Source: Actinosynnema sp. ALI-1.44
Lineage (GTDB): Bacteria; Actinomycetota; Actinomycetes; Mycobacteriales; Pseudonocardiaceae
Direction: 5' to 3'
Length of the DNA: 64,000 bases
NCBI RefSeq assembly: GCF_001984155.1
Contig: NZ_MTQO01000027.1
Coordinates: forward strand, 1-64,000
Shown here: piece by piece, positions 4,567 through 6,593 of the stretch
Layout of the letters: every line of letters starts with the position of its first letter
Position numbering within the stretch: position 1 is the stretch's first letter
Program-made: the position numbers and the translations under genes
Notes under the pieces: generated by a model
Seen by the model: only the letters and a program-made list of their open reading frames with translations
Database searches by the model: none
Told to the model about the DNA's origin: nothing

Positions 4567-4767
4567 ATGTGGTCGCTGCCGCCCCTCGATCCGGATGGCG
4601 CCGGAGGAAGAACCGCACCCTGGTGGAAGGGACTGCGTGCCGCGCTCAGCGTGCTGGGCGCGATCGCGGCGGTCCGCGGAAACCACGAGGCCCTTGCCGA
4701 GGTGGCAAGGGCTCTCATCGCGGTAGGTGACGCGATCGTCGACGCTGGCAGGCCCAGGCGATCGTGA
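4567..4767 (+). CDS. Small hypothetical protein with strong ribosome binding site
   Basis: A 66-codon frame starting at ATG directly after an AGGAGGA Shine-Dalgarno sequence with good spacing, which is the main argument that it is translated. The product is mildly amphipathic, with an alanine- and leucine-rich stretch (residues about 23 to 60) that could form one or two helices, and a basic C-terminal tail. There is no clear signal peptide. It lies alone between the synthetase operon (opposite strand) and the fused two-component gene. No family is recognised. Confidence 0.45.
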   Translation: MWSLPPLDPDGAGGRTAPWWKGLRAALSVLGAIAAVRGNHEALAEVARALIAVGDAIVDAGRPRRS

Positions 4768-4922
4768 CACCCGGCCCGGCTGCCTCGGCAGTCGGGCCGT
4801 ACCGGTCCAGGAAACAACGCCGTGTGGCCGTCTGCCAAACCGCGCTCACCGACCAGCTTCGAAAAGCGCGGCACGAAACCCGTTTCGTGCGCATACCCTG
4901 ACTCCCGGGGAGGTGTTGACCC

Positions 4923-6593
4923 GTGCCCGACTGTCCCGAATGCGGCAAACCGCTGCCCGAACCGCCCGGCGCGGGCCGTCCCCGGCAGTTCTGCTCCACC
5001 ACGTGCAGGTCGGCCGCGCGCCGGACACGGGAACGGGAACGCAAGGCAGCCGAGTCGGCGCGGTCGCGACGCTGCGCGGCTGCTTTCGCCGGACGCCAGT
5101 GCGAACGGGACGCCGTCGTCACCATCACCCTGGACGGCGGGGAAAGCCGCGTCTGCCCCGAATGCCGCGACACCACCGTGTCGTTCCTCGTCCAGCAGGG
5201 CGTCCCGGCCGGGTCGATCGAGGTCTCGGCCGCCGAGGAGCGGCCGACGGCCGTCGCCGCGGCGGTTGCCCCGCGCAGGAAACCCACCAGGGTGGTGTTG
5301 ATCGAGGACAACCCCGGAGTCGGCCACGCCGTCAGCACCGCGTTGGCCAGGAACGGTTACCACGTCGAGTGGAAGGAGACCGGCCGCGCCGGGATGACGG
5401 CTGCGTACCTGACCAAGCCGGACGTGATCCTGCTCGACCTCGGCCTGCCGGACATCGACGGCATCGAACTGCTGCGGCAGTTGCGCCTGGTCAGCGACGT
5501 CCCGGTGATCGTGGTGTCGGCCCGCGGCGAGATCAACGACCGCACACGCGGCCTGAACATCGGCGCGGACGACTACCTCGTGAAGCCCTACAGCCTGGCC
5601 GAACTGTGCGCCAGGATCGACAGGACGCAGGACACCCGGGGCCCGGCGAAGTGGGCGCCGGAGGTCTACGACGACGGCCTGCTGCGGCTGGACTCGGCGC
5701 GGCTGGAAGCGCGTGTGGCCGACGACCCGCTCGACCTGACGCCGTTGGAGTTCCGGTTGCTGGAGACGCTCGCCCGGCAGGCGGGCAGAGTGCAGCCGAT
5801 CGCCACCTTGCTGGTGAAGGCGTGGCACGACGGCAGCGGGAAGGCCGACGACCGGGTCAAGTTCGCGGTGTCCCGGCTGCGCGGGAAACTGGCGGGAACG
5901 GCGCTGGGCAGCGAGGCGATCGTGTCGGTGCGGGGCGTCGGCTACCTGTACCAGGGGCCGGAAACCGCGGACGACCGCGTCTCGGTGCTGGAAGACCGTG
6001 AGCGGATCGCCCGGGACTTGCACGACGTCGTGATCCAGCGGCTGTTCGCGATCGGCCTCGGCTTGCAAGGGCTGACGCGCCGGGCGCCTTCGATCTCGGA
6101 CGCGCTGTCGTCGTACGCCAACGACCTCGACACCACCATCCGCGAGATCCGGCAGACGGTGTTCCAGTTGCAACAGCGCAACGGGTCAGAAGGCCTGCGG
6201 GAGAAGCTGGTGCGCCAGGTGGGCAGGACCGAGAACATCCTCGGCTTCGCCCCGAAACTCGAGTTCTACGGACCGCTCGACACCGACGTTCCCCGCGACG
6301 TCGAACACGACCTGCTCGCCGCACTGGGCGAAGCGCTGTCCAACGTAGCCAGACATGCCCGGGCGCGGAACGTCATCGTCGCGGTGTGGGCCAATCGCAA
6401 GGGGCGGGAACTCGTCCTGCACGTCGGTGACGACGGGGTCGGCCTACCGGAGGACGTCGTTCGCCACAGCGGCCTCGACAACCTCGAGACGAGGGCGCGT
6501 CGGTGGGGCGGCCGATTCGCCGTGCGGCGCAGCCCAGGCGGTGGAACAACACTGACCTGGACCGTGCCGCTGGTTGCCGAACACCAGGTGTAG
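4923..6593 (+). CDS. Single-chain two-component protein: zinc ribbon, receiver, OmpR-type DNA-binding domain, histidine kinase
   Basis: A 556-residue fusion holding both halves of a two-component system. Residues 1 to 85 carry CxxC pairs (C4/C7, C24/C28, C78/C81, plus C51 and C60), likely zinc ribbons. Residues about 122 to 235 are a receiver with acidic E128/D129, phospho-acceptor D172, S199 and K221. Residues about 245 to 345 are an OmpR/PhoB winged helix (DLTPLEFRLLETLARQ, then VSRLRGKL and VRGVGYLY). Residues about 350 to 420 are a HisKA_3 dimerisation domain with H367 (ERIARDLHDVVIQRL). Residues about 455 to 550 are a HATPase_c domain with N474 and the DDGVGL box. The kinase half resembles DevS/DosT, which normally pairs with NarL-type, not OmpR-type, regulators. 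No GAF, PAS or membrane domain is present. The GTG start follows GGGGAGG at 9 bp. Intramolecular phosphotransfer is an inference. Confidence 0.88.
   Translation: MPDCPECGKPLPEPPGAGRPRQFCSTTCRSAARRTRERERKAAESARSRRCAAAFAGRQCERDAVVTITLDGGESRVCPECRDTTVSFLVQQGVPAGSIEVSAAEERPTAVAAAVAPRRKPTRVVLIEDNPGVGHAVSTALARNGYHVEWKETGRAGMTAAYLTKPDVILLDLGLPDIDGIELLRQLRLVSDVPVIVVSARGEINDRTRGLNIGADDYLVKPYSLAELCARIDRTQDTRGPAKWAPEVYDDGLLRLDSARLEARVADDPLDLTPLEFRLLETLARQAGRVQPIATLLVKAWHDGSGKADDRVKFAVSRLRGKLAGTALGSEAIVSVRGVGYLYQGPETADDRVSVLEDRERIARDLHDVVIQRLFAIGLGLQGLTRRAPSISDALSSYANDLDTTIREIRQTVFQLQQRNGSEGLREKLVRQVGRTENILGFAPKLEFYGPLDTDVPRDVEHDLLAALGEALSNVARHARARNVIVAVWANRKGRELVLHVGDDGVGLPEDVVRHSGLDNLETRARRWGGRFAVRRSPGGGTTLTWTVPLVAEHQV

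Follow-up and report, generated by a model that had tools for sequence, protein, structure and literature searches.

An in-frame fusion of a zinc-module receiver–winged-helix regulator with a HisKA_3 kinase core, without a detectable sensor domain, in Actinosynnema sp. ALI-1.44

The window, a stretch of 64,000 nucleotides from Actinosynnema sp. ALI-1.44 (genome G000), contains a gene in which a zinc module (ZnR), a receiver (REC), a winged helix (wHTH) and the HisKA_3 and HATPase domains of a histidine kinase follow one another on one intact chain. The receiver and kinase motifs are complete and no sensor domain is detectable. As far as the literature search and the genome samples reach, this sensor-less order with a zinc module in front is new; single-chain kinase-regulators as such are known, namely the HTCS and the LvrB-like chains. 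Among open-licence papers, judged by their titles and the openings of their abstracts, none deals with a protein of the ZnR-REC-wHTH-HisKA_3-HATPase order. The gene and its parts are the following:

4923–6593, plus strand: fusion gene of the order ZnR-REC-wHTH-HisKA_3-HATPase, 556 amino acids (translation, Pfam, motif positions, third-position GC, AlphaFold2 model)
4923–5198, plus strand: double zinc module, residues 1–92, with Cys 4, 7, 24 and 28 and Cys 51, 60, 78 and 81, and a long helix at 26–48 (alignment, AlphaFold2)
5292–5618, plus strand: receiver domain, residues 124–232, with the phospho-acceptor D172 at 5436–5438 (Pfam Response_reg, 8.6e-25)
5724–5948, plus strand: OmpR/PhoB winged helix, residues 268–342 (Pfam Trans_reg_C, 1.5e-14; best structural match KdpE)
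5952–5975, plus strand: junction of about 8 residues, 344–351, at the usual place of a sensor and coiled coil (secondary structure of the model)
5997–6176, plus strand: HisKA_3 dimerisation and phosphotransfer domain, residues 359–418, with H367 at 6021–6023 (Pfam, 1.6e-12)
6303–6572, plus strand: HATPase_c domain, residues 461–550, with N474 at 6342–6344 (Pfam, 9.9e-10; PDB relatives DosT and DevS)

Translation from a GTG start, with GGGGAGG at 4907–4913, is free of stops over all 556 codons, and no missed stop lies between the domains. The catalytic residues D172, H367 and N474, the eight cysteines and an additional C229 were placed by script, and all four Pfam domains score above their curated cut-offs. 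Third-position GC stays between 0.82 and 0.95 from the zinc module through the HATPase domain, with a value of 0.85 in the short linker. No sensor family, GAF and PAS included, comes up in a Pfam scan at E ≤ 1. An earlier sequence-only reading had described a single chain with receiver D172 and kinase residues H367 and N474, a PhoB-like winged helix and a kinase lacking a sensor domain; script, Pfam and structural matches agree with this description down to identical residue numbers. The AlphaFold2 model, computed from an alignment of 30 sequences from the window and the loci compared with it, has a mean pLDDT of 87.1 and a pTM of 0.46. Because the last strand of the winged helix occupies residues 340–343 of the model and the first long kinase helix residues 352–387, the linker is about 8 residues long, and there is therefore no space for a hidden sensor between the regulator and the kinase.

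The hallmarks of two-component systems (H box, N box, HATPase domain and receiver Asp) are all present. The succession of a receiver and a Trans_reg_C winged helix is that of OmpR/PhoB regulators such as KdpE, MtrA and CreB, with 35% identity to KdpE in the structure search, but the fusion has an added zinc module in front and a kinase behind. Among solved structures, the kinase half is closest to DevS/DosT and DesK, which are HisKA_3 kinases of the HPK7 group (E of 8e-14 for DosT, 1.1e-12 for DevS and 5.6e-9 for DesK). HisKA_3 and HATPase_c are shared with kinases of the DevS/DosS type, while their GAF sensor domain or domains are absent at E ≤ 1; unlike DevS, DosT and DesK, which have a GAF or membrane sensor, the kinase is joined to an OmpR-type receiver and does not serve a NarL-type regulator. 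The proposal that the chain mixes two lineages is in line with the situation in Corynebacterium glutamicum, where, according to parts of PMC3353115, 5/5 HPK7 kinases pair with LuxR-type and 7/7 HPK1 kinases with OmpR-type regulators, the HPK7 kinases shown in its table being listed with HisKA_3.

The HTCS of Bacteroides resemble the fusion in having a kinase, a receiver and a DNA-binding domain in one chain. In HTCS, the receiver and an AraC-type DNA-binding domain come after the kinase (HK-REC-HTH order). The domain order of the fusion is reversed, and neither an N-terminal membrane sensor nor any other sensor was found in it. LvrB (PDB code 8vc9), titled a hybrid response regulator, aligns with the model of the window protein over 468–474 columns; chains of the LvrB type are not known to have a DNA-binding domain between the receiver and the kinase. 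The abstract of PMC11253607 states that HTCS have a membrane sensor and that their tethered DNA-binding domain must be restrained.

The eight cysteines of the zinc module are invariant in 16/16 aligned members, including proteins with LuxR-sigma, LuxR-NB-ARC and LuxR-SARP bodies (the SARP label being read from sequence). In the model (pLDDT 87.9 for the module), the first Cys group is followed by the long, Arg-rich helix 26–48 and the second belongs to a hairpin-helix unit. The first group resembles the treble clef DUF2116, although the match is weak, being found in 10/16 members at E ≤ 1 with a best E of 2.2e-4, and the window module scores 13.2 bits against a gathering score of 26.8. Of the zinc-ribbon pairs proposed initially, the two modules with eight cysteines thus stand, but the first Cys group departs from the classical zinc ribbon. 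No PDB entry matches the fold of the module at E ≤ 0.001, the weak matches including topoisomerases and a MYND domain. At loci L087, L090, L089 and L086, the double module heads LuxR-sigma70, LuxR-NB-ARC-TPR and, by eye, LuxR-SARP-like proteins. There are also half-finger members, with DUF3887 found in the one that was scanned (L092) and with a related wider palindrome upstream, GCACGTWTTA-N-TATTNCGTGC (by eye).

Three features precede the fusion gene:

4567–4767, plus strand: small ORF of 66 amino acids (...RALIAVGDAIVDAGRPRRS; RALIAxGDxIxxAG...RS), a conserved upstream partner (tblastn)
4772–4799, plus strand: GC-rich hairpin of 12 bp that separates the small ORF from the regulator and resembles a terminator, with no T run (RNA fold)
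4872–4889, no strand assigned: palindrome CACGAAAC-CC-GTTTCGTG, candidate operator of the zinc module (homolog comparison, genome search)

Relatives of the small ORF, which matches 0 Pfam families, lie upstream of 13/15 other double-zinc regulators whatever their body (tblastn, E ≤ 1e-2): at 9/10 of the loci L076–L085 (not L079) and at L086, L087, L089 and L090, with none at L075. Folding of 4764–4815 gives −30.3 kcal/mol (z −3.86, 0/200 shuffles as good), and inverted repeats like the hairpin occur in several homologs.

The palindrome can be extended outward by one further G/C pair, to 4871–4890. As an RNA hairpin it was rejected, its folding being no better than that of shuffles (z −0.86). 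In the form CACGAAAC-NN-GTTTCGTG, it is found by eye upstream of 12/12 receiver-type genes, ten of which have the exact CACGRAA half-site; the diverged ones are those of G314 and G023, and one position of the G314 palindrome is altered correspondingly in both arms. In the six genomes searched with up to one mismatch, it is a single site in G000 (11.7 Mb), G005, G205, G118 and G300, and occurs twice in G002. At two mismatches the count exceeds the reversed control in several genomes, both with and without the gene (without it, for example, G014 and G022).

A GCACGAAA-like site lies mostly just upstream of genes with a CRS-type finger. CACGRAA occurs within 200 nt upstream of 14/16 distinct non-REC genes with this finger, compared with 2/24 genes with other fingers (one-sided Fisher 5e-7) and with a background of 4% among 200-nt stretches drawn at random from the loci. 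This count omits the 12 receiver genes, the source of the motif, and includes the G243 gene (L060 = L132) once. In the first set, after the viewing of which the finger classes were drawn, the half-site accompanies 13/15 CRS genes and 0/9 others. In the second set, made of the 15 remaining places of the zinc search together with L070 and L073, and with L175 left out as having no readable finger, one CRS gene has two sites and the half-site precedes 2/15 genes with other fingers (L165 and L167). L066 and L159 have CRS fingers and no half-site. The CRS genes are not independent, since beyond the finger nine of those with a site form one homology group and four LuxR genes another, and finger and motif would likewise appear linked if domain shuffling had moved the 5' end of the gene together with its promoter. 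The few gene families, the post-hoc classes, the exceptions in the second set and possible promoter co-inheritance leave moderate weight for the suggestion that the zinc module reads DNA. Across the CRSA(A/G)RR-finger genes, CACGRAA/TTYCGTG is seen mostly just upstream (L056–L072, L129–L132, L151 and L164), which may represent a new finger-operator pair.

G002, a genome of the same genus in which the region lies on one contig (locus L075), has a syntenic ortholog with the same layout, the kinase directly following the regulator but shifted by one frame. DNA identity between the two genomes is 84% and 94% in the flanks, 77% in the gene itself and 71% in a LigD-like region further upstream; the fusion gene hence diverges more than the adjoining stretches, though not more than the LigD-like region. 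Identity is 76% for ZnR-REC-wHTH and 65% for the kinase, pairwise dN/dS is about 0.36 and 0.37 for the regulator and kinase halves, and dS is 0.43 versus 0.75. The kinase frame of G002 has a third-position GC of 0.88 and is stop-free over 198 matched codons. It contains no ATG, GTG or TTG start before the H box, and the kinase half is therefore not an ordinary separate gene. The possibility raised earlier, that homologs would have the kinase half as a separate gene, accordingly holds as far as the different frame of G002 goes, but not with regard to a start of its own. A programmed frameshift was considered, and by eye no canonical slippery heptamer lies near the junction. The shift may represent a lost fusion, an assembly error or the use of frameshifting. 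The trees of the two halves agree, with the G000 and G002 kinases sisters (97/98) and their regulators likewise (100/100), and the simplest reading is that the fusion predates the split of G000 and G002 and that the frame in G002 was broken recently or reflects a sequence error. In the window, the carboxylase gene directly follows the fusion gene, unlike in G002, where a sigma-70-type ORF with regions 2 and 4 (L075 6975–7529, plus strand) and more sequence separate the two.

The family search used the zinc module as sole query in 297 genomes, and zinc-less fusions in these were sought only by the other genome searches, including the order and class samples, which scored, per genome, only the top candidates from a first look (for example, the best 14 of up to 252 in the class sample). 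The zinc module has a match at E ≤ 1e-4 in 41 of the 297 genomes, which contain 12 loci with a full ZnR-REC-wHTH protein (E ≤ 1e-18); the kinase is fused in frame at one of the 12, which makes the fusion rare. At the ten loci besides those of G000 and G002, no related kinase was found within the 8–10 kb fetched (tblastn, E ≤ 1e-2), and the proteins end in a short C-terminal tail with a (Y/F)(G/S)H(A/S) motif (by eye). The homolog in G005 (L082 3845–5359, minus strand) has a second winged-helix-like stretch after this tail, another C-terminal add-on. The nearest kinases in the order are 44–54% identical to the fusion kinase, with GAF domains in 5/5 scanned. The ten loci lacking a related kinase, the GAF domains of the nearest kinases and the PDB relatives DosT and DevS make it probable that a kinase core was gained by a regulator that had previously been an orphan.

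G321, a genome of another family, encodes a zinc-less REC-wHTH-HisKA_3-HATPase chain of 458 residues in frame (L094 1486–2862, minus strand). It has the same sensor-less order and is 43% identical to the window protein, but has no convincing zinc module or small-ORF match nearby and no palindrome seen upstream. This order was found in 1/100 other genomes of the order and 1/5 in the family of G321, the one being G321 itself, and among 118 class genomes in none except that of the window. The sequence-only reading had taken the exact order to be undescribed: the genomes sampled yielded no further in-frame chain with the full order, although the order minus the zinc module does exist in G321. A single fusion origin that includes G321, a long branch, has a p-AU of 0.43 when G000, G002 and G321 are held together in the regulator tree and appears in 32% of the bootstraps of the kinase tree. 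Holding the ZnR rows and G321 together is rejected (p-AU 0.008). The ZnR receivers are not one clade in the regulator tree, where a receiver of the own genome (L003) falls among them, so that the zinc module may have undergone several losses or gains.

No plasmid record covers 80% of the fusion protein, no plasmid or phage record matches the zinc module at E ≤ 0.1, and the three matches from a scan of genome contigs are distant and cover the receiver or the receiver-winged-helix part. Genome G006 has, 2–3 kb apart, two stretches of kinase sequence that resemble the window kinase at about 48% and 46% (L162 5500–6417 and 2905–3459, both plus strand), the usual residues just before the H being missing from the former. 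A palindrome-like site with one mismatch near a kinase fragment in this genome was considered as a relic of a fusion and rejected, as a tblastn search there showed no convincing trace of the zinc module or receiver.

The preferred reading, held with moderate confidence, is that the protein acts as a single-chain two-component regulator, in which a DevS/DesK-type kinase core stripped of GAF domains sits on the C-terminus of an orphan ZnR-REC-wHTH regulator and which would phosphorylate itself and autoregulate via the zinc module. At the sequence level, it is supported by the intact frame, the catalytic motifs, the layout of G002 and the conserved palindrome before the gene. The HisKA_3 helices would dimerise the chain, H367 would autophosphorylate and pass the phosphate to D172 inside the fused dimer, and the phosphorylated receiver would set DNA binding by the winged helix. 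Since the partners of HPK7 kinases in C. glutamicum are LuxR-type regulators (parts of PMC3353115), it is the tethering that would permit a kinase of a NarL-serving lineage to serve an OmpR-type receiver. The N-terminal zinc module may act as a DNA reader that anchors the protein at the operator of its own gene, GCACGAAAC-NN-GTTTCGTGC (4872–4889), for autoregulation. As the winged helix occupies the place of the sensor, the likeliest input to the kinase would be DNA binding or the dimer state.

It is possible, if on the unlikely side, that the kinase, whether freely active or phosphatase-like, is a weakly selected passenger heading for loss, the functional protein still being the orphan regulator. 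The broken frame in G002, the lower conservation (65% versus 76%) and higher dS (0.75 versus 0.43) of the kinase half and the lack of the fusion at 10/12 loci are consistent with such a passenger; its motifs, however, are intact in G000, its dN/dS is 0.37, and the G002 frame retains its high third-position GC and 198 stop-free codons. Rather unlikely, and put forward tentatively, is a wider proposal, that the C..C-(x~17)-C...CRSA(A/G)RR module would be an undescribed class of bacterial DNA-reading domain acting on GCACGWWW half-sites upstream of its own gene and an exchangeable head of REC-wHTH, LuxR-sigma, LuxR-NB-ARC and DUF3887 proteins, with the operator-bound regulator of the fusion serving as input domain to a sensor-less kinase that would sense DNA occupancy. 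That a separate NarL-type regulator is a further phosphorylation target of the kinase, with ZnR-REC-wHTH as a DNA-bound or receiver-controlled input in the style of hybrid kinases, appears distinctly unlikely: HPK7 kinases do serve LuxR-type regulators in C. glutamicum (parts of PMC3353115) and LvrB is among the structural matches, but the neighbouring ORFs that were scanned are LigD-like, an AMP-binding enzyme and a biotin-dependent carboxylase.

The zinc module itself had been proposed to replace the sensor and signal a redox or metal state to the kinase. The invariance of its eight cysteines and the lack of any other sensor domain in the Pfam scan would fit this role, yet the module is part of the regulator, with the receiver and winged helix lying between it and the kinase, and it occurs in 10/10 homologs with no related kinase nearby as well as in LuxR-type regulators, which lowers this reading; the long Arg-rich helix and the associated upstream DNA motif also speak against it, and it is considered improbable. 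A metal-gated DNA reader would combine the sensor and DNA-reader ideas. A sequencing error joining two genes in the window is very improbable. The halves of G002 do lie in different frames, but its kinase frame lacks a start before the H box, so there are no two proper genes there either, the G321 chain is in frame and third-position GC in G000 is continuous. The separate-gene reading was set aside as unlikely on these grounds, and an assembly artefact is unlikely because the syntenic ortholog of G002 shares the layout and G321 provides a third REC-wHTH-kinase chain.

If, as the preferred reading of a single-chain regulator has it, the place of the kinase's sensor is held by its own DNA-binding regulator, a pathway would have collapsed into one molecule able to monitor promoter occupancy. 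The fusion would then be a natural setting in which to see whether a HisKA_3 kinase can serve an OmpR-type receiver once tethered to it, and the predicted operator, occurring about once per genome, makes the hypothesis of DNA recognition by the zinc module directly testable.
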